Shown here: piece after piece, positions 176-23,318 of the stretch
How positions within the stretch are numbered: position 1 is the first letter of the stretch
How the letters are laid out: each line of letters begins with the position of its first letter
Source of the DNA: Deinococcales bacterium
Lineage (GTDB): Bacteria; Deinococcota; Deinococci; Deinococcales; JAAFIG01
Assembly (NCBI GenBank): GCA_013298595.1
Contig: JAAFIG010000051.1
Coordinates: forward strand, 1 to 23,359
Length of the DNA: 23,359 nucleotides
Reading direction: 5' to 3'
Translations under genes and position numbers: made by a program
Notes under the pieces: generated by a model
Seen by the model: only the letters and a program-made list of their open reading frames with translations
Databases searched by the model: none
Told to the model about the DNA's origin: nothing

Positions 176-302
176 CTACGATGCGATAACTACGAATTGT
201 TGATGAGAAATGTTTTTGGACAAATAATTTAATGAATATTTACCCCAGTATCTCGAGTCATGGTGTGCATAGAACAAGTTTTTTAGCAAAACCTGACAGT
301 CT

Positions 303-1805
303 TCAACGATTTTGCGGGAAGCCCAAATCTATTTTACTGGTGCTTGGGTCTGGGTAACGACTGGTTACCACTTTGCCTCGAGTGTAAAATTGAATTCCTT
401 CAGGACCGTACATGTGTGTATCGCCAAATAAACTGGCTTTCCAACCACCAAAACTGTAATAGGAAACGGGTACTGGAATAGGCACGTTAATGCCAACCAT
501 GCCAACATTGACTTCGTATTGGAATTGCCTTGCAGCACCGCCATCTCGAGTAAAAATCGCAGTACCATTGCCATATTGGTTATCGTTGATTAAAGCTAAA
601 CCTTCTTGGTAAGTGTTGACTCGAGTGACACCAAGTACGGGTCCGAAAATTTCATCGTCGTAGCATTTCATGCCCGGTTTGCAATGATCTATGAGACTGA
701 CACCTAAGAAGTATCCGTTGCCTGGAACAGTGTTTTTGCGACCATCTACCACCAGTGTTGCGCCTTCGAGTGGTGCATTCTCGAGGTAACTTGCCACGCG
801 ATCACGGTGTTCTTTGGTAATTAACGGACCCATTTCGGCGGTTGGGTCGGTGCCTGGTCCGACTTTAATTTTTGGTAAGCGTTCTTTGACTTTGGCAATG
901 AATTCATCGGCAATATCGCCAACAGCGATCACCATGCTAATTGCCATGCAGCGTTCGCCTGCGCTGCCGTAGGCGGCGTTAACAGCGGCATCGGCTGCCA
1001 TATCCAGATCGGCATCGGGTAAAAGCATCATGTGGTTTTTGGCACCACCAAGGGCTTGTACGCGTTTGCCGTGCTTGGTGCCTGTTTCGTAAATGTACTT
1101 AGCAATCGGGGTGCTGCCAACAAAGGAAACCGCGCTGATATCTGGGTGCTCGAGTAAACAATTCACGGCTACTGCGTCGCCTTGAACGATATTAAAGACA
1201 CCATCGGGTAAACCAGCTTCTTTTAAGAGTTGCGCGAGGAACAACGCCGCACTCGGGTCTTTTTCCGATGGTTTCAGAATAAATGTGTTACCACAAGCAA
1301 TTGCATTTGCCATCATCCACAGTGGCACCATCGCAGGGAAATTAAATGGGGTAATACCAGCCACCACTCCCAGTGGTTGGCGAATACTGTACACATCTAT
1401 GCCTTTAGAAGCCTGCTCGGAGTAACCACCTTTAAGTAAATGCGGAATACCACAGGCAAATTCAACATTTTCTAGTCCTCGAGCAATTTCACCAGCTGCA
1501 TCCGATGGGACTTTGCCGTGCTCGCTCGAGATAATGCGAGCTAATTCTGAGCGGTTGGCTTCGATCAGTTCGCGGAAACGAAACATGATTTCGGCTCGGC
1601 GGCTTAAACCTGTGGCTCGCCATGCAGGAAAAGCGGCTTTGGAAGCTGCCACAATACTATCTATTTCTTCGATTGAAGCCAGTTCAACATTGGCAGCATG
1701 TTCGCCAGTGGCAGGGTTAAAGACTTTACCTGTGCGCCCAGATTTACTTGCATGAACTGCGCCATTGACCCAACTCGAGATGCGTTTCAAATCAACCATT
1801 GTCAT
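303..1805 (-). CDS. mmsA: Methylmalonate-semialdehyde dehydrogenase (CoA-acylating)
   Basis: A 500-aa aldehyde dehydrogenase of the MmsA/IolA branch. This family oxidises methylmalonate semialdehyde (and malonate semialdehyde) with NAD and CoA to propionyl-CoA (acetyl-CoA) in valine and inositol breakdown. Visible landmarks are the N-terminal WVNGAVHASKSG, the TPFNFPAMVPLW segment typical of MmsA, the NAD-binding FVGSTPIAKYIY, and the catalytic SAGERCMAIS with the nucleophilic Cys near residue 286. The length is normal for the family. The ATG at 1805 has a strong Shine-Dalgarno (GGAGGA) five bases upstream, which fixes the start; an in-frame ATG lies two codons later. It diverges from the tautomerase gene. 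No clear terminator is visible after the stop. It is bracketed, together with the tautomerase, by the two inverted 56-bp elements. The family assignment is firm; substrate is inferred. Confidence 0.93.
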   Translation of the reverse strand: MTMVDLKRISSWVNGAVHASKSGRTGKVFNPATGEHAANVELASIEEIDSIVAASKAAFPAWRATGLSRRAEIMFRFRELIEANRSELARIISSEHGKVPSDAAGEIARGLENVEFACGIPHLLKGGYSEQASKGIDVYSIRQPLGVVAGITPFNFPAMVPLWMMANAIACGNTFILKPSEKDPSAALFLAQLLKEAGLPDGVFNIVQGDAVAVNCLLEHPDISAVSFVGSTPIAKYIYETGTKHGKRVQALGGAKNHMMLLPDADLDMAADAAVNAAYGSAGERCMAISMVIAVGDIADEFIAKVKERLPKIKVGPGTDPTAEMGPLITKEHRDRVASYLENAPLEGATLVVDGRKNTVPGNGYFLGVSLIDHCKPGMKCYDDEIFGPVLGVTRVNTYQEGLALINDNQYGNGTAIFTRDGGAARQFQYEVNVGMVGINVPIPVPVSYYSFGGWKASLFGDTHMYGPEGIQFYTRGKVVTSRYPDPSTSKIDLGFPQNR

Positions 1806-1876
1806 AATTTCCTCCGAATGTGTTTAGTGTATCTTACAGCTTAATACTCGAGACGTATTTCTGGGTGTGTTCGTGG

Positions 1877-1882
1877 CATACT
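1877..1882 (+). promoter_or_regulatory. -10 box of leaderless promoter (tautomerase)
   Basis: CATACT ends 7 nt before the ATG at 1890, and there is no Shine-Dalgarno. Transcription would begin at or next to the start codon. No convincing -35 is seen. The same arrangement recurs at six other genes in this window. Confidence 0.55.
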
Positions 1883-1889
1883 GCTGCTT

Positions 1890-2090
1890 ATGCCTTATGT
1901 CAATGTGCGAATTACCAAGGGAAATGTGACTGTGCAACAAAAAAAGCAGATTATCGCGGAAATCACGGCAACACTGCAAAATGTGCTGGGTAAAAAACCC
2001 GAGCACACCCACATTGTGATTGACGAAATAGACCCTGATAACTGGGGTTTTGCGGGTGTCACCACCACCGAGTACCGCCAACAAAAGTAG
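1890..2090 (+). CDS. 4-oxalocrotonate tautomerase family protein
   Basis: A 66-aa protein beginning Met-Pro-Tyr-Val-Asn-Val. After Met removal, Pro1 would be the catalytic base, as in the 4-oxalocrotonate tautomerase superfamily. The length and the beta-alpha-beta pattern (PYVNVRITKG, then a helix QQKKQIIAEITATLQNVLG, then THIVIDEIDPDNWGFAG) fit the small hexameric members. The DxxNWGFAG ending also occurs in many tautomerases of unknown substrate. The gene diverges from mmsA and is probably leaderless. Its stop codon lies directly against the second 56-bp palindromic element, so that element would be in its 3' untranslated region. The physiological substrate cannot be read from sequence. Confidence 0.88.
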   Translation: MPYVNVRITKGNVTVQQKKQIIAEITATLQNVLGKKPEHTHIVIDEIDPDNWGFAGVTTTEYRQQK

Positions 2091-2091
2091 G

Positions 2092-2147
2092 GGCGAGGCA
2101 TGCGACCATGCCCGTCAGGTGCATGTATATGGTCAAGAAGCCTCGCC
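2092..2147 (+). repeat. 56-bp REP/MITE-like palindromic element, copy 2
   Basis: Inverted copy of the element at 120-175. It starts one base after the tautomerase stop codon and has the same GGCGAGGC/GCCTCGCC ends. As RNA it folds into a long imperfect hairpin without a T-run, so a role in 3'-end protection or chromosome structure is more likely than intrinsic termination (inference). Confidence 0.75.
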
Positions 2148-2203
2148 TTTGCAGGACGGTGTTTTAAACGAATTGTAGGCAATTTTAAACACCTGTCGAG
2201 AAG

Positions 2204-2764
2204 TCAGCTGATTTGAAGTAACTCGAGTTCACTTTTCCCTGCAAAGTACGAACCTATACGAATTGGGTGGTAAATTCCAAATTTGCTTGGTTTCTCGAGG
2301 CTGTCGCCATCGGTTGCTAAGTCGCCATCCAGCGGTGTGAGTTGTGTGGCTTGCCAGTCTATTTCAATGCTGACTTCTGCTAAACGCAAAGAATTGCCGC
2401 TGGAATCGTTTTCGCAATCTTCCATCAGGGCTTGTAATTTTCTTTTTTCAGCCGCTTTGAGTTTAGCTGCAAAAATCCCTCTGCGTGGTTTGTACGTAAA
2501 CTCAGCTTCAATACCTTGAATAGTAATGGTGGCTGCCGAAAATGGTGTGATACTGTCATCTGTGACCACACCATTTTCGACTCGAATCACTTCTAAATAA
2601 ATTCCGTATTGAAAATTCAGGTATGGCGACCCGCGTAAAAGCATGACAATAAATTGTTTTAAGTATTCAAGGTTCGCAGTCACAAAATCCAATTCGTGAA
2701 AGCCACCGCCAGCCTCGGTGTAATAATACGCGTAGTAAAAAGACTTATTTGCTAAAGAAGTCAT
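2204..2764 (-). CDS. Hypothetical protein, 186 aa
   Basis: I do not recognise this protein. It is soluble, has no signal peptide and no Cys-rich or membrane segment, and mixes beta-type stretches (YAYYYTEAGGGFHELDFV, YGIYLEVIRVENGVV, AATITIQGIEAEFTY) with one charged helix near residues 100-118 (AAKLKAAEKRKLQALMED). It is the last gene of the hisZ-hisG-oxidoreductase operon, starting 8 bp after the oxidoreductase stop, with a weak AGGGA ribosome site between them. Codon use and CTCGAG content match its neighbours, so it does not look recently acquired. The context suggests co-expression but gives no function. Confidence 0.75.
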   Translation of the reverse strand: MTSLANKSFYYAYYYTEAGGGFHELDFVTANLEYLKQFIVMLLRGSPYLNFQYGIYLEVIRVENGVVTDDSITPFSAATITIQGIEAEFTYKPRRGIFAAKLKAAEKRKLQALMEDCENDSSGNSLRLAEVSIEIDWQATQLTPLDGDLATDGDSLEKPSKFGIYHPIRIGSYFAGKSELELLQIS

Positions 2765-2772
2765 GATTTTCC

Positions 2773-3789
2773 CTAAACAATTTCCTCGAGTTTAACAACA
2801 CGTTTTTCTTTGTAAGACAGCGTAACTGCTAATGCTAATCGCAAACTCTCGAGGGCATCGGATGCACTGGGGTTGGGGTTTGTACCTGTCTCGAGGCTTT
2901 TGAAAAAAGCTTCTAACTCGAGTTTATAGGCTTGGGCGAACCGATCCATAAAAAAATCGTAATGATCGGCGTGTAACATACCTACGCCATTGGTGTTTTG
3001 TCCGTACTGCCAGAGTGGGGTTTTTGGTGTGGCATCTAAACAAATTTTGCCATTGGTACCAAAAATTTCGGTGGTCACATCGTAGCCGTAAGCACTGGTT
3101 CTCGAGTTTTCGATCACACCTACCGCGCCATTTTTAAATTTCAGCATGGTCGTGGTGGTGTCTGAATCGCCTAGTGCAGCAATGTCTGGGTTGTGGGCTG
3201 TACCCCAAACCATAACCTCTTCGACTTCGCCAACAAAGAAACGGGCAATATCGAGGTCGTGGACAGCTTGGTCGATAAATTGCCCACCCGAAATTTTTAA
3301 GTACTCAAGACTCGGTGGGGCTGGGTCGCGTCCAACAGCCCGAAATTGGCGAATCGTGCCAAGTTCGCCATGCTCGAGTTTTTGTTTAGCCAAGGCAAAC
3401 GGTGGGTCAAAACGCCGATTAAAACCAATTTGAAAAGGCACACCTGCTTTTGTAACCACCTCGAGGGCAGCTTTGGTACGGTTAAGCTCGAGAGCCACAG
3501 GTTTTTCGCAAAAAATAGCTTTGCCTGCTCGGGCAGCCGCTTCGATTAATGGCGCATGGGTTGGGGTTGGCGTGACAATCAGTACGGCATCTACCCCAGG
3601 GGCAGTAATGGCATCTTCGGGATTGGCAAAATCTAAATCGGCTCGAGTTAACGCCTTAGCTGCTAAACGCGCTGGTTCAAACGGGTCTGCCACTGCCACC
3701 ACTCGAGCATTGGCAATACCAATTAAGGTTCGGGCATGTTCGATGCCCATCCGACCACAACCGAGTAGTGCCACTCCAAATACTTTCAT
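2773..3789 (-). CDS. Gfo/Idh/MocA-family oxidoreductase, inositol 2-dehydrogenase-like
   Basis: A 338-aa NAD(P)-dependent sugar or polyol dehydrogenase. The N-terminal Rossmann fold shows GCGRMG at residues 10-15. The family's EKP (residues 95-97, with the conserved Lys) is present. GFNRRFD at 122-128 and HDLD at 177-180 (catalytic His) are typical of myo-inositol 2-dehydrogenase (IolG) and close relatives, which oxidise myo-inositol to scyllo-inosose. I start it at the ATG at 3789, which has TTGGAG six bases upstream and clears hisG; an upstream in-frame ATG at 3819 would overlap hisG and lacks a ribosome site. It lies 14 bp after hisG in the same operon, where a polyol dehydrogenase is unexpected. 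No other inositol-catabolism gene is adjacent, so the substrate is open. Confidence 0.85.
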   Translation of the reverse strand: MKVFGVALLGCGRMGIEHARTLIGIANARVVAVADPFEPARLAAKALTRADLDFANPEDAITAPGVDAVLIVTPTPTHAPLIEAAARAGKAIFCEKPVALELNRTKAALEVVTKAGVPFQIGFNRRFDPPFALAKQKLEHGELGTIRQFRAVGRDPAPPSLEYLKISGGQFIDQAVHDLDIARFFVGEVEEVMVWGTAHNPDIAALGDSDTTTTMLKFKNGAVGVIENSRTSAYGYDVTTEIFGTNGKICLDATPKTPLWQYGQNTNGVGMLHADHYDFFMDRFAQAYKLELEAFFKSLETGTNPNPSASDALESLRLALAVTLSYKEKRVVKLEEIV

Positions 3790-3803
3790 GCTAACTCCAA
3801 TCT

Positions 3804-4406
3804 TTATTTTGCTAAACAATGAATTAATTCGCGTAAACGGCTGGCTTTGAGTTTTAAGGCGGCTCGATTAACAATAAACCGTGTCGAGAGCTGCATCAGG
3901 ATTTCGTTTTCGATTAAGCCATTTTCGGTTAAAGTCCGCCCTGTTTCTACAATATCTACAATCGCATCGGCAAGCCCTGTTAAAGCAGCCAGTTCAATTT
4001 TGCCATTTAAAGCAATCACATCGGCACTGATACCACGTTCACGCAGAAAAACTCGAGTAGCTCGAGGGTACCTAGTAGCAATGCGCTCAATGCGGTTTGT
4101 GCTACCAGCCACTCGGATTAAGGAGAATCGGTAGTTGTTGCCACCTAAATCCACGGGTTCGTAAGTATCTCTGGCGGCTTCCAGAATCCAGTCTTTGCCG
4201 ACAATGCCACAATCGGCTACACCCACATCCACATACACAGGAACATCGGGGTCTTTAACCAAAAGCAAGGTCACATCTGGGAAATCAAATTGCAAACTAC
4301 GCGATTGCTCGAGTTCGGGAATAACTAACCCAGCTTTGCGTAAACAAGTTAAAGCAAAAGTTTTGCTACGCTCACCACTAGGAATTGCAATGGTTAAAGG
4401 GGTCAT
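3804..4406 (-). CDS. hisG: ATP phosphoribosyltransferase, short form
   Basis: A 200-aa HisG of the short type, which lacks the C-terminal regulatory domain and works only in complex with HisZ. It catalyses the first step of histidine synthesis: ATP plus PRPP gives phosphoribosyl-ATP. Landmarks are the GVADCGIVGK loop (62-71) and the PRPP-binding signature from E138 to T158, including GLADAIVDIVETG. The ATG overlaps the hisZ stop by 4 bases (ATGA), so the two subunits are translationally coupled; GGAG lies inside the hisZ 3' end. With no ACT-like domain, histidine feedback would act through HisZ. The length is normal for short HisG. Confidence 0.95.
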   Translation of the reverse strand: MTPLTIAIPSGERSKTFALTCLRKAGLVIPELEQSRSLQFDFPDVTLLLVKDPDVPVYVDVGVADCGIVGKDWILEAARDTYEPVDLGGNNYRFSLIRVAGSTNRIERIATRYPRATRVFLRERGISADVIALNGKIELAALTGLADAIVDIVETGRTLTENGLIENEILMQLSTRFIVNRAALKLKASRLRELIHCLAK

Positions 4407-5533
4407 AAGTGCTCCAAATCAATTTTTGTACCATCAGCTAAACGAATCGCATAATTCTCGAGTAGCAAATAAGGCACGCCCCAAGCTTTGGCAGCTTCCT
4501 CGAGTTCGGCTTGGTTATTTGTCCAAGCTTGCACAATACGTTTACCTTGGGTACGAAAAACCTTGGCAATACGGTTTGAAGTAGCAATGGCAAACGCAGG
4601 TACAAGGTTTGGTGCTTCACCAAGCGCAGTCATGACACGCTCGAGTCCGACAGCAAAACCAACAGCGGGTAAACCAACATCGTAACGACCACCACCGCAG
4701 AGTGGTTGACCAAAATCTGGGGTGTACGCTTGGAAAATCACACCAGTGTAATAATCCCAAGCTCGAGCAATACCTAAATCAAATAAGAAGCGTTCGGGTG
4801 GTAACTCAGCTGCTACTAAACGCACATTCTCGAGCGCCGCTTTAGCTGCTTGCGAATGTGCAATACCAGCCGCTTCTTTGAGCACATCAACACCACCATA
4901 CAAATCGAGTAATTGCAGCACAGCTTCTCGGGTTGAACCTTTAATTTTGTATGTTTCAAGTAATGCCTGTAATTCAGGAGCATTCTTACGATGAATCGCA
5001 GTTCGCAATGCTTGAATAGCTGTTTCCTCGAGTTCGGTACTGGCAAGCACTGCTTTGACAAATCCAGGATGCCCAATTTCCACAGCGGCTTGAGGGAAGC
5101 CAACAGCATCTAAACACTCGAGAGCAACGGATAAAATTTCAGCATCGGCTTGGGTGGTAGAAACCCCAAGTAATTCGCCACCAACTTGGGTGTACTCGCG
5201 TTGCCGTCCAAGTTCAGCATCTCGAGTACGAACCCAAAGTGTGCCGCTGTAACGCAAACGCACAGGGTAGGTTGGTTCGGGCATCCCATGTACCAAATTG
5301 GCGATGCTGGTTGTGTACTCACCACGCAGCATCAGTACCGAACCGTCACGGTCAACCAATTTAAAAGCTTTATCGGCTTGTGGATGAACAGGATTAAAAA
5401 CCTCGAGACTTGGGGTTTGCACAGGATCAAATCCCCATGAATGCAGCACTCGCTCGAGTTTGCCACGCAAATCTTCGCGCCATGTTTCGTCTTTAGGCTG
5501 GTAGTACCGTGTTCCATCGGGAATCAATCGCAC
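4403..5533 (-). CDS. hisZ: ATP phosphoribosyltransferase regulatory subunit HisZ
   Basis: A 376-aa histidyl-tRNA synthetase paralogue. It has class II motif-2-like REYTQVGGELLG at 112-123, the HisA-like DYYTG at 260-264, CGGGRYD at 279-285 and motif-3-like GFAVGLERV at 292-300. It lacks the anticodon-binding length of a real HisRS and directly precedes short HisG, so HisZ is the right call rather than hisS. The family binds HisG and senses histidine. The start is GTG at 5533 with no Shine-Dalgarno but a TACGAT box 7 nt upstream, which suggests a leaderless mRNA. The intergenic region upstream carries a large hairpin element. Confidence 0.93.
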   Translation of the reverse strand: MRLIPDGTRYYQPKDETWREDLRGKLERVLHSWGFDPVQTPSLEVFNPVHPQADKAFKLVDRDGSVLMLRGEYTTSIANLVHGMPEPTYPVRLRYSGTLWVRTRDAELGRQREYTQVGGELLGVSTTQADAEILSVALECLDAVGFPQAAVEIGHPGFVKAVLASTELEETAIQALRTAIHRKNAPELQALLETYKIKGSTREAVLQLLDLYGGVDVLKEAAGIAHSQAAKAALENVRLVAAELPPERFLFDLGIARAWDYYTGVIFQAYTPDFGQPLCGGGRYDVGLPAVGFAVGLERVMTALGEAPNLVPAFAIATSNRIAKVFRTQGKRIVQAWTNNQAELEEAAKAWGVPYLLLENYAIRLADGTKIDLEHL

Positions 5534-5540
5534 AAAAAGT

Positions 5541-5546
5541 ATCGTA
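5541..5546 (-). promoter_or_regulatory. -10 box of leaderless promoter (hisZ operon)
   Basis: On the minus strand TACGAT is followed by ACTTTTT and the GTG start. The 7-nt spacing puts the transcription start at the start codon. No -35 is evident. Confidence 0.5.
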
Positions 5547-5580
5547 CCAAGATTGAGGACTGAACGGCTAGGCAGTGGTG

Positions 5581-5717
5581 ATACGGAATTAACTTAATCA
5601 CTCTCGTTTGACCAAAAAACGGTCAAACTGTCGTTCAAACATTAATTCCGTGTTGTTGTTACTCCTGTTAGTCGGTTAATCAGTCAAAATACACGACTGA
5701 TTAACACAATTCCGTAT
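5581..5717. repeat. Compact palindromic element with nested hairpins
   Basis: Outer arms at 5581-5600 (ATACGGAATTAACTTAATCA) and 5698-5717 are inverted repeats matching at 17 of 20 positions. Inside are two perfect hairpins: GTTTGACC/GGTCAAAC (5606-5613 with 5621-5628) and an 11-bp stem GTTAATCAGTC/GACTGATTAAC (5675-5685 with 5695-5705). A further perfect 9-bp arm, CGGAATTAA (5584-5592), pairs with TTAATTCCG (5642-5650), so alternative foldings compete. TGATA occurs at both borders (5579-5583 and 5717-5721) and could be a target duplication. No ORF. It sits between divergent hisZ and the acyl-CoA dehydrogenase gene, outside both predicted leaderless transcripts. Confidence 0.7.
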
Positions 5718-5764
5718 GATACAGCTCGGTTTGCATTTCTCGAGCATTGTTAGACTTTCTCGCA

Positions 5765-5770
5765 TAGAAT
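5765..5770 (+). promoter_or_regulatory. -10 box of leaderless promoter (acyl-CoA dehydrogenase)
   Basis: TAGAAT ends 6 nt before the ATG at 5777. The AGAGG in the gap is too close to the ATG to serve as a ribosome site, so initiation is probably leaderless. Confidence 0.5.
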
Positions 5771-5776
5771 AGAGGC

Positions 5777-6922
5777 ATGTCCCTCAATTTTTCTTTAAGC
5801 AGTGAACAACTGCAACTCCAAGCCCTCGCTCGAGAATTCACTGCTAAGGAAATCATTCCTATTGCCGCAGATTTTGATCGCCGCGAAGAATACCCGCCCC
5901 AAATTCTCGAGAAAGCTTTCGAGGTTGGACTATCCAATATTATTATTCCAGAACACGCTGGTGGACTGGGTTTGGGAATGCTCGAGGAAACCATTATCGG
6001 TGAAGAAATGGGTTATGGCTGTATGGGCATTTATACTATTTTAATGGCTTCAGAACTGGGTATCACCCCAATTTTAGTCGGTGGCACAACCGACCAACAA
6101 AAACGTTTCCTCGAGCCGTTAACCCAAAAACCAGGATTGGCTAGTTTTGCGCTTTCCGAAGCCAACAACGGCTCAGATGCAGGGGCAATGCGAACCAAAG
6201 CGGTGCTCGAAGGTGATGAATGGGTTTTAAATGGTACAAAAATGTGGATTAGCAACGGTGGTATTGCCGAGTTTGCCGTGGTTTTTGCTTCAGTGGATTA
6301 TGCTTTAAAAGCCAAAGGGACAGTGGCAATTGTGGTACCAAAAGGCACACCTGGTTTTTCGCACAATAAAATTCATCATAAAATGGGGCAACGAGCCACC
6401 TATACTGCTGAACTGGTTTTTGAAAATGTTCGTGTGCCTAAAGAAAACATGCTAGGTGGAATCGGTGATGGTTTTAAAATCGCTATGAAAACCCTTGATA
6501 AAACCCGTATTCCTGTGGCAGCAGGGAGTGTCGGCATTGCCCGCCGAGCACTCGAGGAAAGTATTCAATACGCTAAAACAAGAGAAGCTTTTGGTAAGCC
6601 AATTGGTGATTTTCAAATGATTCAAACCAAACTTGCCAATATGTACATGGGACTCGAGACAGCGCGGCTGATTACCCAAAAAGCAGCATGGCTGGTGGAT
6701 GCTGGTAAACCACATAGTATGGAAGCAGCCTTGGCAAAAGCTTACGCTTCGGATATTGCCTTTGATGCTGCCAACGAAGCGATTCAAGTTCATGGTGGCT
6801 TTGGGTATGTTGGCGAGTACCCTGTCGAAAAATTATTGCGCGATGTTAAATTAAACCAAATCTACGAAGGTACCAACGAAATTCAGCGAGTCATCATGGC
6901 TCGAGGTTTATTAAAGGATTAA
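5777..6922 (+). CDS. Acyl-CoA dehydrogenase
   Basis: A 381-aa FAD flavoenzyme of the short/medium-chain acyl-CoA dehydrogenase family, which makes the trans-2-enoyl-CoA in fatty acid or branched-chain amino acid breakdown and passes electrons to ETF. It has the FALSEANNGSDAG substrate/FAD loop and MWISNGG in the middle domain. TREAFGKPIGDFQMIQ, VHGGFGYVGEYPVEKLLRD and YEGTNEIQRV lie in the C-terminal helical domain. The catalytic base is the Glu of YEGT (about residue 364). Full length, no defects seen. Chain-length specificity cannot be read; isovaleryl/isobutyryl/butyryl types are all possible. The next gene begins 9 bp after the stop. Seven CTCGAG sites fall in this gene: five in frame as Leu-Glu and two as Ala-Arg. 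Confidence 0.93.
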   Translation: MSLNFSLSSEQLQLQALAREFTAKEIIPIAADFDRREEYPPQILEKAFEVGLSNIIIPEHAGGLGLGMLEETIIGEEMGYGCMGIYTILMASELGITPILVGGTTDQQKRFLEPLTQKPGLASFALSEANNGSDAGAMRTKAVLEGDEWVLNGTKMWISNGGIAEFAVVFASVDYALKAKGTVAIVVPKGTPGFSHNKIHHKMGQRATYTAELVFENVRVPKENMLGGIGDGFKIAMKTLDKTRIPVAAGSVGIARRALEESIQYAKTREAFGKPIGDFQMIQTKLANMYMGLETARLITQKAAWLVDAGKPHSMEAALAKAYASDIAFDAANEAIQVHGGFGYVGEYPVEKLLRDVKLNQIYEGTNEIQRVIMARGLLKD

Positions 6923-6931
6923 GGTATTTTT

Positions 6932-8227: not shown

Positions 8228-9345
8228 TGAATCCACTCGAGATTGGTTATTTATTAGTGCAAGGTGGTTTAGCAGCTTTTGCTGTGATCAACAATTTTTT
8301 TTGGCATAACCTCGAGCCTAGTCAGGCGAATCACTTAAAAATTTCGATACTCATTCCAGCCCGTAATGAAGCCCGTAACCTCGAGCAATTACTGCCAAGT
8401 TTATTGGCTCAGGACGCTGCAAACCTCGAGATTCTTGTTTTAAATGATCGTTCCGAAGATGATACAAAAATGGTGCTTGAGCAATTTACTGATTCGCGTT
8501 TGCGGGTACTCGAGGGAACACAATTGCCTGATGGTTGGCTTGGTAAGAATTGGGCATGTCATCAACTTTCCTTAGTAGCCACAGGGCATATTCTGATTTT
8601 TACCGATGCTGATACACTTTGGCAATCATTTACCGCTAATGCCATTGCCGCGCAATTCGAGCAACGCAATGCAGATGCACTTTGTGCTTGGGCGGCGCAA
8701 ACAGTGACAGACCCAATCTCGAGATTAATTCAGCCTTTGCAGCAATGGAGTTTGCTGGCATTCCTCCCACTTTTTTTTGTGCCAATGCGGGCTTTTCCTG
8801 TGGCTGTGGCAGCCAATGGGCAGTGCTTGGCGTTCACTCGAGCTGCGTATAACCGTATTGGTGGGCATGAAGCAATAAAAAATAGCATCATCGAAGATAT
8901 GGCATTGGCTCGAGCTGTCAAACGCAGTGGTGGTAAATTTGTATTACTTAATGGTGCTCATGCCATTCGTACCAAAATGTATGCCAATAGCCAAGAAGCT
9001 TTTGCGGGGTACGCAAAAAATGTGTATCCCGCTTTTGGTGCCTCTCGAGCTGCTTTTTTTACGGCTACACTTTTTAATTTTTTAGTATATGTATTGCCGT
9101 GGTTGCTGTTGCCATTTTGGGATGTCGCACCATTGGCAATACTGGCATCCATGTTGGCTCGGGGAATTTCCGATCAGCGCAATCATTACAATCCACTGTG
9201 GACGTTGTTGCATCCGTTGGGTATTGCTGTTTGGGCAATAATTGGTTTTGAGAGTATGCAGCGTTTTGAAACGGGCAGAGTAACTTGGAAGGGGCGCGAG
9301 TACGATTTGCGCCAAACCAATAAAAACTCGAGTGACTTAAAATAA
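8227..9345 (+). CDS. Membrane family-2 glycosyltransferase (CrtQ/CruC-like)
   Basis: A 372-aa GT2 enzyme. It has an N-terminal hydrophobic helix (about 5-27), the nucleotide-sugar fold start ISILIPARNEARN (39-51), LNDRSEDDT (72-80) and the metal-binding DADT at 127-130. Then come an ED-containing segment (SIIEDMALARAVKRSGG) and at least two hydrophobic C-terminal helices. This arrangement is common in glycosyltransferases that act on carotenoids or hopanoids at the membrane. A carotenoid desaturase gene follows 345 bp downstream on the same strand, so a carotenoid glycosyltransferase is the best inference. I start it at the ATG at 8227 (TAATG overlap with the previous stop). Its stop codon lies inside the first 85-bp repeat. 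Confidence 0.85.
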   Translation: MNPLEIGYLLVQGGLAAFAVINNFFWHNLEPSQANHLKISILIPARNEARNLEQLLPSLLAQDAANLEILVLNDRSEDDTKMVLEQFTDSRLRVLEGTQLPDGWLGKNWACHQLSLVATGHILIFTDADTLWQSFTANAIAAQFEQRNADALCAWAAQTVTDPISRLIQPLQQWSLLAFLPLFFVPMRAFPVAVAANGQCLAFTRAAYNRIGGHEAIKNSIIEDMALARAVKRSGGKFVLLNGAHAIRTKMYANSQEAFAGYAKNVYPAFGASRAAFFTATLFNFLVYVLPWLLLPFWDVAPLAILASMLARGISDQRNHYNPLWTLLHPLGIAVWAIIGFESMQRFETGRVTWKGREYDLRQTNKNSSDLK

Positions 9346-9372
9346 AAATCGCGCCACTTCTGGGCGCTGATA
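9340..9372 (-). ncRNA. Putative tiny hairpin RNA or terminator, copy A
   Basis: Read on the minus strand, GCGCC, a 7-nt loop and GGCGC (9367-9351) are followed by GATTTTTATTTT, a typical rho-independent terminator. The predicted start from the promoter just upstream (9379-9407) is near 9372, so the transcript would be only about 33 nt: essentially the hairpin itself. It would be antisense to the last bases and stop codon of the glycosyltransferase. Predicted only; it could also simply stop antisense transcription. Confidence 0.4.
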
Positions 9373-9378
9373 AACAAA

Positions 9379-9407
9379 ATAGTAGCACACTATGCGTTAT
9401 GCGTCAA
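9379..9407 (-). promoter_or_regulatory. Sigma70-type promoter on the minus strand, copy A
   Basis: TTGACG (9407-9402), 17-bp spacer, TACTAT (9384-9379). The tandem heptamer ACGCATAACGCATA runs from the -35 into the spacer, and another GCATA lies upstream of the -35, which could be operator half-sites. No gene follows; only the hairpin/U-tract does. In copy B the spacer is partly divergent yet both hexamers and the spacing are kept, which supports a real promoter. Confidence 0.5.
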
Positions 9408-9513
9408 GACTATGCACTCGAGGGTAGTGCTGAACAGCAAAAAACAATTTGGAAAGCACCAAAAACCCGAAATAAACTTAGAAATCTCCTAAAGCATCCA
9501 ATGGACTCAGCGG

Positions 9514-9526: not shown

Positions 9527-9559
9527 ATGACTCGACAAAACTCTGAAGGTATAAAATAA
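9527..9559 (+). CDS. Possible 10-codon leader ORF
   Basis: ATG to TAA encodes MTRQNSEGIK. The ATG has the window's leaderless architecture (TATACT plus 7 nt). Its TAA occupies the same position in repeat copy B as the glycosyltransferase stop does in copy A. This could be a leader peptide for the desaturase mRNA, or a remnant created when a gene end plus the 85-bp repeat was duplicated. It is too short to judge by composition. The gap 9346-9680 holds otherwise only the two repeats. Confidence 0.25.
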   Translation: MTRQNSEGIK

Positions 9560-9586
9560 AAATCGCGCCACTTCTGGGCGCTGATA
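9554..9586 (-). ncRNA. Putative tiny hairpin RNA or terminator, copy B
   Basis: Same GCGCC/GGCGC hairpin (9581-9565) and U-rich tail as copy A, preceded by a minus-strand promoter. The predicted RNA of about 33 nt would be antisense to the end of the 10-codon ORF and to the desaturase mRNA leader. Predicted only. Confidence 0.4.
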
Positions 9587-9592
9587 AGAAAT

Positions 9593-9621
9593 AGTGTATC
9601 ACGGTATGCGTTATGCGTCAA
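9593..9621 (-). promoter_or_regulatory. Sigma70-type promoter on the minus strand, copy B
   Basis: TTGACG (9621-9616), 17-bp spacer, TACACT (9598-9593). The spacer half next to the -10 differs from copy A, but both hexamers and their distance are preserved. Confidence 0.5.
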
Positions 9622-9689
9622 GTATATGCACTCGAGACCGTGCCAGACGGAAAAATTTCGCTCGAGTGATGAGATAAAAGGTGTTAAGT

Positions 9690-16208: not shown

Positions 16209-16222
16209 GATTTGAAAGTATA

Positions 16223-16250: not shown

Positions 16251-16252
16251 GT

Positions 16253-17431: not shown

Positions 17432-17438
17432 GCGCTGT

Positions 17439-17444
17439 AGTCTA
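17439..17444 (-). promoter_or_regulatory. -10 box of leaderless promoter (class V aminotransferase)
   Basis: TAGACT, 7 nt, ATG on the minus strand, in the 25-bp gap behind the AGPS-like gene. Confidence 0.45.
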
Positions 17445-17456
17445 GCATTCTTGGCA

Positions 17457-19184
17457 TTATTGGTTACCAATGCCAAAGATATTATCTGGGTCAAGATGCT
17501 GTTTTGCCCCTTCAATCCAAGCAAGTCCAGCGCTACTTTTGACATCTTTAACAAATCCAGCCCGAAGTTTACCAACACCATGATGATGCGAAATCGAACC
17601 GCCATGCTCGAGAATGGTTTCTCTGGCAGCATGTTCAAGGGTTGCAAATTGCTCGGCAGGGTTTTTTACACCTGTGACAAGTGTGCCAAGATAAAAATAA
17701 ACCGCTGCTCCTGAGTGGTACAACTGTGTGACACGCCAAGAAATGATGACGTTACCTGGCAATCCAAGGCGTTTATGTTCACTGAGTATTCGTTGTTTGA
17801 CAGCTTCGCACATGCTGGGTAGTTCTGACCATGAGACACTGGTTTCAAAGGATTCTGCCATGATACCAAAACGCATTAAAAAATCGCGGATATAGGCAAT
17901 GGCAAATGTTAACTGATAACCACGTTTACCATTTTCACCACCAGCCCGAAAACCATTAAATTGCTTAGCCAGTTGTCCAATACGCGCAGATTGTGCTGCC
18001 ACTTCGGCTCTCGAGCCTTCGTATAATAAAGTGCAAGCGCACATGCTGTCTGGTTTAAAACCAAGAGGACCCGTCACAATGGCTCGTTCAATTTTGGATT
18101 TTTGTAATTTCCAACCTGTGGTTTCGGGTTTTAAAGCTTGTCCAAATTGAAATTGAAAATTATCCATTAAACGAGCACTAGCAGGGTAAGGTGGGTATTT
18201 GGCTAATTCTTTCATAAATTGATAGCCACTGGCAAAATCATGAAATAACACAGAATCAAATTGTTGCACTTCTGGGAGTTTAAAAATTTTCACTCGAGCA
18301 CTGGTGATAATGCCAAAATTCCCTTCTGAACCAAATGCTAAAGTGCGCGGATCGGTGCCCATGCTTTCTCGAGGCATGGCTTTGCCTTGGATTAATCCTT
18401 GCGTGGTTATCATCCGTAAATCAAGAACTAAATCTTCGATGTTGCCATACCGATTTTTTTTCATACCACTCGAGCGGGTTGCAATCCAACCACCAAGGGT
18501 ACTAAATTCGTTACTATCTGGTTCGTGACCCAAGGTGTAGCCACGTTTCTCGAGTTCAAGTTGTAATTCTGAACCAATAATGCCTGCTTGCACATGGGCT
18601 ACGCGATTCTCTGTGTCTAATTCAAGAATTTGGTTCATGCGTCGCATATCCACTGAGACAATGGCGCGTGGATCGTGTTCAGGGCAAGCCAGTGCATGAC
18701 TGACATTAGAACCACCACCAAAAGGTACCAGTAGCACCTTATGATCCTTACCGAGTTGCACAATACTTTGCACTTCGGCTTCTGAAATTGGGTAGACAAT
18801 CATATCTGGTACACGCAGTAAACGCCCATGACGAATGGCGTACACTTCCTCGAGCGCATGTCCATGTCCGTGTCTACGCCGAGCAGTTTCATCCTGAGAC
18901 CAAGCAATAGAACCTAAAGCTTGAATAAAAGAACCCATTTCTCGAGCAGCATTGATAGGTGTTAAACCTTGGCTTTGAAATTCGGGTTGTAACACCAAAT
19001 CCGTACCAAGTACACCATTTGCCCAATTTAACAAATACGGTAAGCGTTTGCCCGACATTTCGTACCTCGAGCCAATGAGTTTAGCGCCAGTACTATCGAT
19101 ATCTAAACCAGAATCGGTGAAACCCCAACCATCGAATCGTTCGCCGCGAGGCACAGAAGGATCAGTAAACATTTTTTCGGACAT
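17457..19184 (-). CDS. Alkyldihydroxyacetonephosphate synthase-like FAD enzyme
   Basis: A 575-aa flavoprotein of the VAO/PCMH family that resembles eukaryotic alkyl-DHAP synthase (AGPS) along its whole length. HGHGH at 105-109, IRHGRLLRVPDMIVYP, the FAD loop PFGGGSNVSHAL (154-165), GHEPDSNEFSTLGGW (219-233) and SSGMKKNRYGNIEDLV all match. So do ARLMDNFQFQFGQALKP, RGYQLTFAIAYIRDF, the SFETS segment and the active-site HHHGVGK at 533-539. AGPS swaps the acyl chain of acyl-DHAP for a fatty alcohol, making the ether bond of ether lipids. ATG at 19184 is chosen because TATACT lies exactly 7 nt upstream; the longer reading is not supported. A related FAD oxidase with another substrate cannot be excluded, since bacterial homologues are often annotated generically. 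Confidence 0.88.
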   Translation of the reverse strand: MSEKMFTDPSVPRGERFDGWGFTDSGLDIDSTGAKLIGSRYEMSGKRLPYLLNWANGVLGTDLVLQPEFQSQGLTPINAAREMGSFIQALGSIAWSQDETARRRHGHGHALEEVYAIRHGRLLRVPDMIVYPISEAEVQSIVQLGKDHKVLLVPFGGGSNVSHALACPEHDPRAIVSVDMRRMNQILELDTENRVAHVQAGIIGSELQLELEKRGYTLGHEPDSNEFSTLGGWIATRSSGMKKNRYGNIEDLVLDLRMITTQGLIQGKAMPRESMGTDPRTLAFGSEGNFGIITSARVKIFKLPEVQQFDSVLFHDFASGYQFMKELAKYPPYPASARLMDNFQFQFGQALKPETTGWKLQKSKIERAIVTGPLGFKPDSMCACTLLYEGSRAEVAAQSARIGQLAKQFNGFRAGGENGKRGYQLTFAIAYIRDFLMRFGIMAESFETSVSWSELPSMCEAVKQRILSEHKRLGLPGNVIISWRVTQLYHSGAAVYFYLGTLVTGVKNPAEQFATLEHAARETILEHGGSISHHHGVGKLRAGFVKDVKSSAGLAWIEGAKQHLDPDNIFGIGNQ

Positions 19185-19191
19185 ACCCCAT

Positions 19192-19197
19192 AGTATA
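19192..19197 (-). promoter_or_regulatory. -10 box of leaderless promoter (AGPS-like gene)
   Basis: Consensus-like TATACT followed by 7 nt and the ATG at 19184, without a Shine-Dalgarno. No clear -35 at 16-18 bp. Confidence 0.6.
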
Positions 19198-19278
19198 AGC
19201 AATTTGGGTGTAACGACCAGAGACTCATGGTGCTTTCCTACGGTCATGGCTGAGCAACTCGAGGTAGAACTGTGGTCT

Positions 19279-20241
19279 ATGAAAAAATTCTTCTTACTTG
19301 GTTTACTATTTTTGGCTGCTTGTATGCCTGTGGCTCGAGATACCAATGCTCCATCGGTGGCAGAAACACCGCCCGCACCACGCTTAGCTGGTATGACCTC
19401 GAGTGCTTATGTTGTACTGGCTGGCGAACGGGTCTATTACGAAGTGGGTGGTTCGGGTTCGCCTGTGGTGTTAGTGCATGGTATTGGTGCAGGTAATTCA
19501 ATGCACTTGTACCGTCGGAACACAGCTGCCTTAGCTAAAGAACACCGTGTTTATGCGTTTGATTTTCCTGGTTTTGCCCGTTCTGGCGCACGCCCAATTC
19601 AGTACACCAACGATTTATATGTGCGGGTACTCGAGGAATTTTTGCGCCAAGTGGTGCGTGAACCAGCTGCGCTTTTTGGTGGTAGTTATGGTGCCGATTA
19701 CATTATTCGAGTGGCTGTCGAACAACCAACGCTGGTTAGTAAACTTTTACTTTCTAACCCCAGTGGTTATGGTTTTTCTAATGAAGCTCGAGCCGAACGC
19801 CGTGCGGGTAATGCCCGACGCGACCCAGCGTTATTCGAGCAATATGCCACCACACCACTTGGTGCACTGATTTTCCAAACGCTGCAAGGTGAAGGCGGTC
19901 TCAATTTCTTTTTGTACAACTATGTGTACCTCGACCCGACTTTGGTAACACCAGAATTAACTCGGATTTATCAGCAAAATCTCGAGGGAGCCAATAAAGC
20001 CTTTGCCCCATTCTCTTTTTTCTCGGGTTTACTCGACCAAGATGTTTCGGATTTATGGGCAAAAGTCAAACAACCCACCTATATGGTTTGGGGTTCAGAT
20101 GATATTTTCACACCGATTTCCGAAAGTCGGTACTTTCTCGAGGCTCGTCCTGTGCCATTTGCTGTTTTGCGTGCGCGCACAGTTCCTTACGATGAAGCTT
20201 TTGAAAAATTTAATCTCTTGGCGCTCAGATTCCTCAAGTAA
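19279..20241 (+). CDS. Lipoprotein alpha/beta-hydrolase, catalytic His apparently missing
   Basis: A 320-aa protein beginning MKKFFLLGLLFLAAC, with a perfect lipobox LAAC (Cys15), so it should be lipid-anchored. The alpha/beta-hydrolase fold is clear: LVHGIGAG oxyanion segment (65-72), DFPGFARSG, nucleophile elbow GGSYGAD with Ser136, and the acid region VWGSDD (Asp274/275). The place where the family has GH-x-P-x-x-E reads ARTVPYDE, with Thr301 where His should be; no His occurs anywhere in the last 45 residues. Either a pseudo-enzyme or a non-standard triad. I start at ATG 19279 because of the signal peptide, though the ribosome site is weak; ATG 19246 is an alternative. It diverges from the AGPS-like gene. 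Confidence 0.85.
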   Translation: MKKFFLLGLLFLAACMPVARDTNAPSVAETPPAPRLAGMTSSAYVVLAGERVYYEVGGSGSPVVLVHGIGAGNSMHLYRRNTAALAKEHRVYAFDFPGFARSGARPIQYTNDLYVRVLEEFLRQVVREPAALFGGSYGADYIIRVAVEQPTLVSKLLLSNPSGYGFSNEARAERRAGNARRDPALFEQYATTPLGALIFQTLQGEGGLNFFLYNYVYLDPTLVTPELTRIYQQNLEGANKAFAPFSFFSGLLDQDVSDLWAKVKQPTYMVWGSDDIFTPISESRYFLEARPVPFAVLRARTVPYDEAFEKFNLLALRFLK

Positions 20242-20266
20242 AAACCCCTGTTCAGTTGAACAGGGG
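20240..20266 (-). terminator. Rho-independent terminator of the lipoprotein gene
   Basis: Perfect 9-bp stem CCCCTGTTC/GAACAGGGG with a 4-nt loop. On the minus strand it is followed by TTTTT, so it terminates the leftward transcript 22 bp after that gene's stop. It also abuts the hydrolase stop on the plus strand and may slow that transcript, although there is no T-run on that side. Confidence 0.9.
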
Positions 20267-20288
20267 CAAGAAGGCTTTACTGCTTGGT

Positions 20289-21191
20289 TTATGGTTTTGG
20301 GGTGATGCTAATAGCTGGCAATACGCCGCAACCCTGGAACGTCATAACAATGGTGCTCTTGCTGTCATCAAGGGTAATCGAACCTGCAACTAAGCGGTTG
20401 GTGGCACAAGTTGCACGATTATTGAAGACTAAGCCGTTGCTCGAGACTTGGAAGTTGCGTTCGGCATTGCTGCCACGCTTGGATTTCCAGATGCCACTCA
20501 TGGCAACAGTGCCGTTTGGTAATTGTGCGGTATTGCTGATTGTGCCTCCTGCATCAGCGGTGTAACTAGCGGTCAGTTGATTAGTCCAAGCGAAGCTAAC
20601 TCCGTCCACACCATTGACACTACGAACTGAACTGCCTGTGACATCATGGACTCGAGCCAAGGTGGTGCTGGTGCCTTGGGCGATGTTGCGGCTACCATTA
20701 CGGGTGGTTGTCCAAGCCACGGTTTTGCCATTGATGGTACGAGTCCAAACAGTTTGCAAGTTGCTCAGGGTTTCTGAGTGGTTACGGTCGTTGGTGTTGC
20801 TGGTATCGGCAATGGTCTTGCTACCGCTACGGGTGATGGTGCCACCACCGGGTAAGTTACGAAGGCAATTAGTAGCATCAAAACTGACGGTCACATTATC
20901 TGGGATGTTATCTGCATCGGTATCGGTTGCAAACGATCCTGCTGTGATACTACGGCAACCTGCTGGTAATGCCAGTAAACCAATACTTTGTATGGTCACA
21001 CCTGTGGTGCTAAAACCAACAGCGGTACTGTCTGAAAACCCAAGAGTATCGGCTAATTCTTCGGCATCGTCGGATGCCAATTCCGCATTGGCGGTATTTT
21101 CCTCTTGTAAGTTATTGCCCGCAGGTGTTTGACCACATGCCACGAAGGTTAATCCGAACGCCACTGCCAATGCTAATTGAAACTTTTTCAT
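20289..21191 (-). CDS. Secreted lipoprotein of unknown function, 300 aa
   Basis: MKKFQLALAVAFGLTFVAC is a lipoprotein signal with the modified Cys at residue 19 (the -3 Phe is slightly unusual). The mature part starts with an acidic linker, then has a DTDADNIPD motif reminiscent of calcium-binding thrombospondin type 3 loops. After that comes a long Thr/Ser/Asn-rich beta-type region with alternating strands (TITRSGSKTIAD, TVWTRTINGKTVAWTTTRNGS) and four spaced Cys (CRS, NCL, TCAT, GCG) that could form two disulfides. The family is not recognised. ATG at 21191 has AAAGGTGG five bases upstream, so the long upstream extension is rejected. Two signal peptidase II genes lie upstream on the same strand. 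Confidence 0.83.
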   Translation of the reverse strand: MKKFQLALAVAFGLTFVACGQTPAGNNLQEENTANAELASDDAEELADTLGFSDSTAVGFSTTGVTIQSIGLLALPAGCRSITAGSFATDTDADNIPDNVTVSFDATNCLRNLPGGGTITRSGSKTIADTSNTNDRNHSETLSNLQTVWTRTINGKTVAWTTTRNGSRNIAQGTSTTLARVHDVTGSSVRSVNGVDGVSFAWTNQLTASYTADAGGTISNTAQLPNGTVAMSGIWKSKRGSNAERNFQVSSNGLVFNNRATCATNRLVAGSITLDDSKSTIVMTFQGCGVLPAISITPKP

Positions 21192-21248
21192 ATTTTCCAC
21201 CTTTCTCGAGCGTCTGCTCGCTAACGAGACACAAGGTACACAGGTGGG

Positions 21249-21290
21249 CGTTCCAAAAACGTTCCAAAGATTTTTATCTAGCGTTCCAAA
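21249..21290. promoter_or_regulatory. Three helically phased direct repeats CGTTCCAAA
   Basis: CGTTCCAAA occurs at 21249, 21260 and 21282: steps of 11 and 22 bp, that is, on the same face of the helix. The last two share 13 bp (CGTTCCAAAGATT). They lie between acpS and the lipoprotein gene, 58-99 bp upstream of its ATG; the last one includes the final acpS codons. On the minus strand they read TTTGGAACG, and the GGAAC core resembles -35 elements of ECF sigma factors. An operator array or ECF promoter is possible. Confidence 0.5.
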
Positions 21291-21649
21291 GATTCTAATA
21301 CCACTGTGGCAACAGCATTCTCGAGCGTATGAGACAAGCTCAGATGGGCTTTCCAGTGATTCTCGAGCATGGTTTTTTGTAAGCTTGGCACTACACAAAT
21401 GATTGGTTTTACACCAACAAATTCAACCCAAACATCTTGCCAACCATGCGATTCAAACCACGTTTTTTGAAAAGCTTCTTTGGCTGCAAACCGAGCCGCT
21501 AAACTTGGCACAGGATTTTTTTTCTCAAGACAATACGCCAATTCTTGGCTGGTAAAAGTACGTTCCAAAAAGCGTGCTCGAGTACTGGAACTCAGTATTT
21601 TTTCAATCCGATGCAGTTCGATTAAGTCCACACCAATGGCAACAATCAC
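21278..21649 (-). CDS. acpS: Holo-[acyl-carrier-protein] synthase
   Basis: A 123-aa phosphopantetheinyl transferase of the AcpS type, which moves 4'-phosphopantetheine from CoA to acyl carrier protein. The N-terminus IGVDLIELHRI holds the Mg-binding Asp8, and AARFAAKEAFQK holds the Mg-binding Glu58; both are in their usual places and the length is typical. The start is GTG at 21649, overlapping the stop of the upstream lspA-GNAT gene (GTGA), so the two are translationally coupled. Confidence 0.95.
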   Translation of the reverse strand: MIVAIGVDLIELHRIEKILSSSTRARFLERTFTSQELAYCLEKKNPVPSLAARFAAKEAFQKTWFESHGWQDVWVEFVGVKPIICVVPSLQKTMLENHWKAHLSLSHTLENAVATVVLESLER

Positions 21650-22656
21650 ACCTCGAGTATATCGGGTTTACGGCGTTCAAGTTGGGTGATGTGTAAATTT
21701 TCGGCAACCGTGATTTCGCCAAGGATTGTAAAACCAAGACGTTGATAGAGTTGCAAAGCTGGGATGTTACGACTACCTGTTTGAACAATGGTTTTTTCAA
21801 CATCAGGGTGTTGTGCTAATAAATGCTCGAGTAAACGTTTAGCGATACCTTGACGGAAATGATTTGGATGCACCACTAAACGGTGAATATCTAAAGTGTT
21901 GTCAATAAGTTTATAAGAAACCGCACCTGCCAATTCACCATAAGTGTAAAATCCATAAAAACTTTCTTGGCAATGCTGTAATTCCTCGAGTGTTTCGTGC
22001 AACGCTGGAATACCCGCAAAACCAATCAGATTGGCTTCGACTTGGTACGAAGCACGTTGTAACTCGAGTAAACTTTCAGCTTGGGTTTCGATAGTTAAAA
22101 CTTGGATTTCAAAAGGTGGTGCGGTAATTTCTAGGGTTTGTTTAGTGTTTAGGGTTTGTTGGTTACTCTCAAGTTTTTTAGTTGGTAAGAAACTTGCTAA
22201 AACCAAAAGTAATACTCCACCAACCACACCTGTATCAGCAATATTAAAAATTGGAAAAGTACTACCCGGCTGAATAATTCGGTATATAGCTGTCAACCAA
22301 TGGCTTTGCAACATATCAACCACATGTCCATAACGAAGCCCATCAATTGCATTGCCCCATGCACCAGCCACAATCAAGGCAAAAGCAACATTCTCGAGTA
22401 AAGATTTTGGTTTACGCAATAACCAAACCAGTATGCCTGCCCCAACAATGATGCGTATTACAATCAGTACAGGTGTTGCTCCAGAAAATAAACTCCACGC
22501 TGCGCCTTTATTAATCACATGGGCAAGCGACATAAAACTTGGGAATTCTTGATAGGGATAAACAGTGTTCAATGGAACATTCGCAACTGTCCAGAGCTTT
22601 AAGGCTTGGTCAAGTCCTATCCATAAAATCACAATGCCAATAATCAGTGCTTGCAC
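21646..22656 (-). CDS. lspA: Lipoprotein signal peptidase fused to a GNAT acetyltransferase
   Basis: A 336-aa protein with two parts. Residues 1-158 are signal peptidase II: four hydrophobic helices, NKGAAWSLF (49-57), GNAIDG with catalytic Asp105, VVDML, and FNIAD with catalytic Asp141. Residues 160-180 form a polar linker (KKLESNQQTLNTKQT). Residues about 183-336 are a GNAT acetyltransferase with the acetyl-CoA loop HFRQGIAKRLL (266-276) and NIPALQLYQRLGF (297-309). No frameshift is needed: it is one continuous ORF. The acetyltransferase would face the cytoplasm if LspA has its usual topology. The start is GTG at 22656, 9 bp after the neighbouring lspA; there is no clear ribosome site. Confidence 0.9.
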   Translation of the reverse strand: MQALIIGIVILWIGLDQALKLWTVANVPLNTVYPYQEFPSFMSLAHVINKGAAWSLFSGATPVLIVIRIIVGAGILVWLLRKPKSLLENVAFALIVAGAWGNAIDGLRYGHVVDMLQSHWLTAIYRIIQPGSTFPIFNIADTGVVGGVLLLVLASFLPTKKLESNQQTLNTKQTLEITAPPFEIQVLTIETQAESLLELQRASYQVEANLIGFAGIPALHETLEELQHCQESFYGFYTYGELAGAVSYKLIDNTLDIHRLVVHPNHFRQGIAKRLLEHLLAQHPDVEKTIVQTGSRNIPALQLYQRLGFTILGEITVAENLHITQLERRKPDILEV

Positions 22657-22665
22657 TCGAGCAGT

Positions 22666-23187
22666 TTAACTGGTTTTGTGAAGGGTTACAGGTACACTTG
22701 GTTTTCTTTGCATTTGTGTTATTGCTCCAAGAATCACACCACCAACCACACCTATATCGGCGATATTAAAAATTGGGAAAGGTGTGCCAAAAATCGGTTG
22801 ATAAATCGCGGTTAGCCAATGGCTTTGCAACATGTCTACTACACCACCACGTAAAATGCCATCAATTGCATTGCCCCATGCACCAGCTACAATCAAAGAA
22901 ATGGCGATTGTCTCGAGCATTGGTTTAGGAGTTTTCCACAACCACAACAGTAATCCAAGTCCGACAAGGCTACGTACAACAACCAGTATGGGTGTAGCCC
23001 CTGCAAATAAACTCCAAGCTGCTCCAATATTGATATCGTACCCAAGCGATAAAAAACCTGGGATTGGCTCGAGGTAATTAAAAGCTCTGAAAGGAATATT
23101 CGCCATTGTCCAGAATTTCAGGGCTTGGTCGGCGAGGATCCAAAACAAAATAATACCAAGGCTGATTTTGAATGAGAGTTTGTGCAT
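22666..23187 (-). CDS. lspA: Lipoprotein signal peptidase (signal peptidase II)
   Basis: A 173-aa membrane aspartic protease that cleaves prolipoproteins before the lipidated Cys. It has four hydrophobic segments, NIGAAWSLF (53-61), GNAIDG with Asp109, and FNIAD with Asp144. It is a close paralogue of the LspA half of the next gene; 22859-22887 and 22340-22368 share 29 identical bases across the first active-site region, which suggests duplication or gene conversion. ATG at 23187 is preferred: TAAAAT lies 7 nt upstream, and the longer ORF would add 19 residues of non-typical sequence. Confidence 0.92.
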   Translation of the reverse strand: MHKLSFKISLGIILFWILADQALKFWTMANIPFRAFNYLEPIPGFLSLGYDINIGAAWSLFAGATPILVVVRSLVGLGLLLWLWKTPKPMLETIAISLIVAGAWGNAIDGILRGGVVDMLQSHWLTAIYQPIFGTPFPIFNIADIGVVGGVILGAITQMQRKPSVPVTLHKTS

Positions 23188-23194
23188 TTTTAGG

Positions 23195-23200
23195 ATTTTA
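23195..23200 (-). promoter_or_regulatory. -10 box of leaderless promoter (lspA operon)
   Basis: TAAAAT, then CCTAAAA, then ATG on the minus strand; no Shine-Dalgarno. It would drive lspA, lspA-GNAT and acpS. Confidence 0.5.
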
Positions 23201-23318
23201 GCAAGCTCAAAATGAGTTATTAAAATTCCTATACTCAGGTTCACGTTCCTCGAGTATAGTTTCTAAACCTAGTAACCAAGTTGTATTTCACGCATTCCAC
23301 CCGACCCCACCTTACAGC

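Follow-up and report, generated by a model that had tools for sequence, protein, structure and literature searches.

Why should a single six-base palindrome recur, on average, once per 164 bp of a bacterial chromosome? The question is raised by a window of 23,359 nucleotides (the whole stretch of DNA analysed here, contig JAAFIG010000051.1 of a Deinococcales bacterium, from a group of uncultured kin of Deinococcus and Thermus), in which the word CTCGAG occurs 142 times. A preliminary description of this DNA had reached about that figure by hand counting, which proved exact; shuffles preserving dinucleotide composition gave a mean of 1.8 copies and a maximum of 7, so the excess is larger than it had claimed. 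Among all hexamers of the window CTCGAG ranks first, and the runner-up palindrome, TTGCAA, is found 21 times.

The pattern is not confined to the window. For DNA statistics we used 504 kb of the genome from which the window comes (G000; 4,582,226 bp) together with whole-genome counts. In this genome CTCGAG is present 27,159 times, i.e. once per 169 bp or about 5,900 times per Mb, and its letters make up 3.6% of the sequence, while the reversed control word GAGCTC has 15 copies in all. A genome-wide count near expectation would have spoken against a highly iterated palindrome, and the count is far from it: with the sites masked, CTCGAG exceeds an order-2 Markov expectation about 68-fold in G000, 64-fold in G001, 34-fold in G002 and 54-fold in G003, these three being a second species of the window's genus and members of two other genera of the same family, with 26,600-28,200 copies each. 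The same calculation gave 59-fold for G012, which belongs to a second family. Similar density is seen in public Deinococcales metagenome-assembled genomes (110 copies in 21 kb of JAAFJQ010000009.1 and 125 in 21 kb of JANXTZ010000065.1), whose assemblies may coincide with some of our numbered genomes. Since the assemblies showing it stem from more than one project, the iteration is not the fault of a single assembly.

Codon usage and dipeptide content were the obvious confounders, and the excess survives control for both. With expectations computed from the proteins and from codon usage outside CTCGAG sites, the numbers observed in the three reading phases were 1448, 576 and 426, against 37.5, 34.6 and 14.1 expected. 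The chance that base composition, codon usage or proteins rich in Leu-Glu produce the iteration is practically nil, for although such effects account for part of what GC-rich genomes of the order show (Thermus-like G007 has 16 coding sites, 14.5 expected), coding CTCGAG in G000 stands at 37 times the codon-based expectation, strict non-coding DNA (70 kb with no open reading frame of 90 or more codons on either strand) is enriched 62-fold, and Leu-Glu is in excess (2158 against 942 expected) with no counterpart in the control Glu-Leu (945 against 942). The phases, the non-coding excess and this asymmetry led us to reject explanations by codons, dipeptides or GC content for family f1. Densities are 5.94 sites per kb in genes and 5.63 outside them, and the iteration is strong enough to double Leu-Glu in the proteome.

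The features located in the window are collected in Table 1. In the acyl-CoA dehydrogenase reading frame five sites (starts 5906, 5981, 6110, 6551 and 6653) lie in phase 0 and read CTC GAG, and two (5829 and 6900) lie in phase 1, exactly as had been reported. Several intergenic segments are repetitive. Positions 2090-2148 (GAGGCATGCGACCATGCCC...) have dozens of short scattered matches on contigs of G001, G002 and G003 and, judged from these matches, represent a dispersed repeat common to the family. Positions 9340-9425 and 9556-9650 are two copies of a dispersed repeat (AAAATCGCGCCACTTCTGGGCGCTGATAA...GCGTTATGCGTCAAG...) that include CTCGAG, with more copies in G001-G003, and positions 5578-5710 contain inverted repeats with short matches in several G001 contigs. 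At 21646-23244 there is an adjacent pair of genes whose predicted products resemble lipoprotein signal peptidases; one of the two seems to be joined to an acetyltransferase-like domain.

Table 1 Positions of the iterated palindrome and of associated features in the window
Feature	Position	Strand	Remark
CTCGAG palindrome, 142 copies (first to last start)	252..23254	.	In genes of both strands and in intergenic DNA
Acyl-CoA dehydrogenase open reading frame	5777..6922	+	Seven CTCGAG; used in searching for site conservation and for relatives
CTCGAG in intergenic DNA, upstream of the acyl-CoA dehydrogenase gene	5739..5744	.	Example outside the main open reading frames
Intergenic CTCGAG in one copy of a dispersed repeat	9417..9422	.	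Located in the window sequence
Intergenic CTCGAG in the second copy of the same repeat	9631..9636	.	

The individual sites are old. At aligned positions the proportion of the window's CTCGAG sites that were intact was 63% for G001, 61% for G002, 57% for G003 and 54% (7 of 13) for G012, while control hexamers were intact in 22, 10, 13 and 12%; the check in sister genomes thus sets 54-63% against about 10-23%. Those window sites that were not intact stood one step away from the palindrome in 0-8% of sites, as against 28-36% for the controls. Sites are therefore actively kept and maintained one by one, and their positions predate the split of the two families. Of 111 genomes covered in the phylum, all from this order, those of family f1 and of genus g11 of family f2 show extreme iteration. 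Elsewhere, in the genomes sampled, the codon-corrected excess was 17-fold in f3/g29, 13-fold in f3/g22, 7- to 10-fold in f5/g13 (which we take to be, probably, Meiothermus), 4- to 5-fold in G008 and G006 and about 1- to 2-fold in Thermus-like g7 and in f4/g16; G004, G041 and G052 showed none. Enrichment climbs with genome size across the order. The description of CTCGAG as a highly iterated palindrome is thus fully borne out, and the behaviour reaches the whole family and, more weakly, the order.

What is maintained is the exact hexamer. The core comprises six bases, flanking positions carry no more than 0.06 bits each, and a preceding G or a following C is enriched only 1.26- to 1.37-fold. 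Words differing from CTCGAG by one base were found at 1.3 times expectation in the 504 kb of G000; this small excess consisted mostly of transitions, at all three half-site positions, and was similar in non-coding DNA. Repair consuming one specific near-miss form was rejected, as no class of such words was consistently and strongly depleted. When perfect words (68.7 times expectation) and one-off words (1.31 times) are entered into a two-state equilibrium, the drop is about 52-fold, for which a population-scaled advantage of about 4 per site, ln(52), suffices; we infer that it is all-or-none for the exact hexamer, near misses having almost none.

Several described systems share part of these properties. 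Highly iterated palindromes (HIPs) are over-represented many-fold throughout the genomes of related species and lost in some reduced lineages, e.g. obligate symbionts (PMC4390886). CTCGAG shows the same genome-wide excess, within genes and between them and driven neither by codons nor by dipeptides, and is likewise long-lived and shared by related species. Like cyanobacterial HIP1 (GCGATCGC) and the alternate HIPs (GGCGCC, rCCGGy, GCsGC), it is iterated genome-wide with losses in some lineages; unlike them it is found in another phylum, with another palindrome, a core of exactly 6 bp and a visibly altered proteome, and its 5,900 copies per Mb make it 2-12 times denser than most HIPs, for which the figure is roughly 500-2,500. 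Two further traits, a GmeC flank and a bias of one-off words to the outer positions, belong to HIP1 and one model and not to all HIPs; the outer-position bias is absent from CTCGAG. To our knowledge cyanobacteria are the only well-known case of HIPs, what HIP1 does and how it arose has been a puzzle since 1995, and CTCGAG is the densest such pattern that we know of.

Neisseria DUS and Pasteurellaceae USS resemble CTCGAG in being iterated as exact matches with a steep fall at one mismatch, the drop from perfect to one-off words being 92-fold for Haemophilus uptake sequences and 82-fold for those of Neisseria (PMC1939737). Known uptake sequences are, however, 9-12 bp long and non-palindromic (also PMC1939737), whereas CTCGAG is a 6-bp palindrome and much denser. 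In Nocardia the same hexamer is the target of an orphan methyltransferase and forms a local cluster near dnaA (PMC4752239), and there too it lacks a restriction context; that cluster is local and comes with an enzyme, in contrast to the 27,000 genome-wide sites here. The earlier statement that no system based on CTCGAG had been described must consequently be narrowed: it holds for genome-wide iteration, of which we found no description in the open literature searched (subscription journals lying mostly outside it), and fails for Nocardia. The hexamer is also the recognition site of XhoI/PaeR7I restriction-modification. Such a site is normally avoided in its host, and CTCGAG is here in extreme excess, the opposite of restriction avoidance, as had been pointed out.

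Which force keeps the palindrome? Our preferred reading, to which we give a probability of about 0.4, is a recombination-coupled drive running through natural transformation. Alleles with an intact CTCGAG would be favoured, at DNA uptake or during heteroduplex resolution, by a putative factor that reads the palindrome; mutated sites would be restored from neighbours' DNA, point mutation would make new sites which could then spread, and lineages that lose transformation (DprA, ComEC) would lose the palindrome. Natural transformation is the best lead that we have. Among 85 genomes at least 90% complete DprA is present in 82, and the three genomes without it, G004, G041 and G052, have the three lowest CTCGAG densities of the 85 (about 283-297 per Mb, the next being about 630); the rank probability of this coincidence is 1e-5, with DprA and ComEC having been picked after the non-iterating genomes were known. 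Their codon-corrected excess is 0.8, 1.3 and 1.3, and out of the Leu-Glu phase they have 6 sites where 11.2 are expected, while G013, a DprA-bearing congener of G052, reaches 2.6-fold. As the three fall in f2/g4, f3/g20 and f3/g12, separate losses of DprA are suggested. ComEC was found in 56 of 61 genomes searched, being absent from G004, G041, G021, G050 and G016 (the last 58% complete), and G000-G003 carry both genes. The DprA pattern points to transformation recombination as the vehicle, short of proof.

The drive also gains from the 52-fold perfect-to-one-off drop, comparable to that of uptake sequences, and from a recent-looking island that is nearly free of sites (L041:4589-8147; one CTCGAG in 3.6 kb, 33% GC). 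The predicted genes of this island, a 432-aa N6/N4 methyltransferase and a DUF262-like protein, make it a possible defence locus, apparently acquired recently. Against the drive, the three genomes lacking DprA (1.8-2.3 Mb) belong to the smallest, and as larger genomes tend to be more enriched, the association could be due to genome reduction; the losses of CTCGAG iteration and of DprA, which recall uptake sequences, are confounded in the same way. Thermus-like g7 genomes retain DprA, and all those searched retain ComEC at least partly, but iteration in them is almost nil. Five genomes of lower completeness (G016, G030, G060, G097 and G098; 58-89%) gave no DprA match and still have raised CTCGAG counts, perhaps owing to assembly gaps. 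With one site per 169 bp, kilobase fragments all hold several, so a plain yes/no uptake filter should saturate, and an exact 6-bp palindrome with no flank is closer in appearance to what a dimeric type II enzyme recognises than to an uptake sequence. A fuller version, in which an order-wide drive keeps a 6-bp signal by DprA-dependent recombination and places Leu-Glu across the proteome, we consider doubtful.

Type II methyltransferases, too, typically act on perfect 6-bp palindromes with no flank information, which brings in methylation-linked maintenance. Here a solitary methyltransferase would mark CTCGAG, and the marked sequence would be copied back by mismatch repair or by some other system that tells the strands apart; the enzyme would be lineage-specific or come from a family outside the five searched. 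HIP1 and the alternate HIPs are generally accompanied by a matching methyltransferase (PMC4390886), the Nocardia enzyme demonstrates that an orphan methyltransferase can have this specificity, and G000 holds at least one enzyme of unassigned specificity, of the D12 class, which is a possible candidate although the enzymes of the sister genomes include no close homologue of it. Nevertheless, searches with PF07669, PF02384, PF01555, PF00145 and PF02086 returned many enzymes but no methyltransferase common to the iterating genomes G000-G003 and G012, although all of them inherited the iteration; in this CTCGAG may differ from the HIPs, and the orphan enzyme implied by the preliminary description did not materialise among these five families. 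The sole conserved enzyme, a C5 methyltransferase of G000, G001 and G012, is 58% identical to plasmid enzymes. Because one of these homologues carries an HpaII-type nuclease beneath the match, the C5 enzyme probably reads CCGG, and it was rejected as the CTCGAG methyltransferase on account of this resemblance. The remaining G000 enzymes appear to comprise a NotI-type system, a type IIG-like protein, one enzyme in the nearly site-free island and a gamma enzyme whose nuclease may be encoded by an unrecognised gene directly upstream. In its GmeC version the model calls for a preceding G or a following C, a preference that is slight here, and one site per 169 bp is far above the saturation of about one per kb expected by Elhai's model. 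Methylation-linked maintenance is in our judgement rather unlikely.

Spacing bears on another possibility, direct selection for a chromosome-wide binding site with a small benefit per site, read by a hypothetical order-wide nucleoid, segregation or repair protein. Additive maintenance of each site at a scaled strength of about 4, equal in and between genes and with no phasing to genes, is what such selection would give, and gaps longer than 500 bp are somewhat rarer than random. On the other hand, over 504 kb the gaps between sites are close to random (CV 0.97), and the sites keep no fixed register with the starts or ends of genes or with the DNA helix. The sites had earlier been called evenly dispersed; they do lie in genes of both strands and between genes, and are even only loosely. 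Gaps shorter than about 19 bp are underrepresented over the same 504 kb, but the deficit is weak or absent in non-coding DNA, so that a protein footprint drawn from it was dropped. About 27,000 sites are very many for one dedicated protein, and a binding site does not predict loss in DprA-less lineages. We regard this explanation as unlikely.

The genomes with the strongest iteration shun other palindromes too. In G000, 20 of the 63 other hexamer palindromes fall below 0.1 of expectation, and GAGCTC is one among many, so a special tie between CTCGAG and the depletion of GAGCTC was rejected. Loci of G000-G003 and G012 display extreme avoidance of words containing GGCC or CCGG, and of TTCGAA, TGCGCA, GGCGCC and CTGCAG, i.e. 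more specificities than the methyltransferases found would suggest. Such avoidance fits a defence role, in which heavy restriction pressure leaves CTCGAG as the sole protected palindrome, a mark of self by which a defence system is spared or guided. Protection, however, removes avoidance only and creates no 60-fold excess, and no site-linked defence gene was found. Avoidance by itself does not yield iteration: Chloroflexi with similar avoidance have almost no CTCGAG (many relatives at L302-L325 strongly avoid CTCGAG along with other palindromes), while moderately iterating G008 displays little avoidance. A defence role is accordingly very improbable.

Four pattern scans of IMG/VR for host viruses returned mostly GC-rich contigs and none that pairs iteration with palindrome avoidance at moderate GC as the host does; a host virus is weakly suggested by L351. 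The GC-rich viral contig IMGVR_UViG_3300036798_000479 (L246:1-8234) carries 45 CTCGAG in 8.2 kb, in three phases and at about 25 times expectation, perhaps a separate iteration of CTCGAG in a phage. A simple finder detected no CRISPR arrays for spacer matching in the retrieved DNA.

CTCGAG extends highly iterated palindromes to a new phylum and a new word. It provides a second, far stronger case, graded across an order with clear losses, and makes hypotheses on HIPs comparable between lineages; methylation-linked repair, recombination drive and a binding site can all be tested, by comparing genomes and in cultured members. The case also shows a short DNA motif reshaping amino-acid sequence proteome-wide, which is relevant wherever selection is inferred from codons or dipeptides. 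If the recombination-coupled drive is true, and true also for cyanobacterial HIP1, highly iterated palindromes would be the same phenomenon as DNA uptake sequences.
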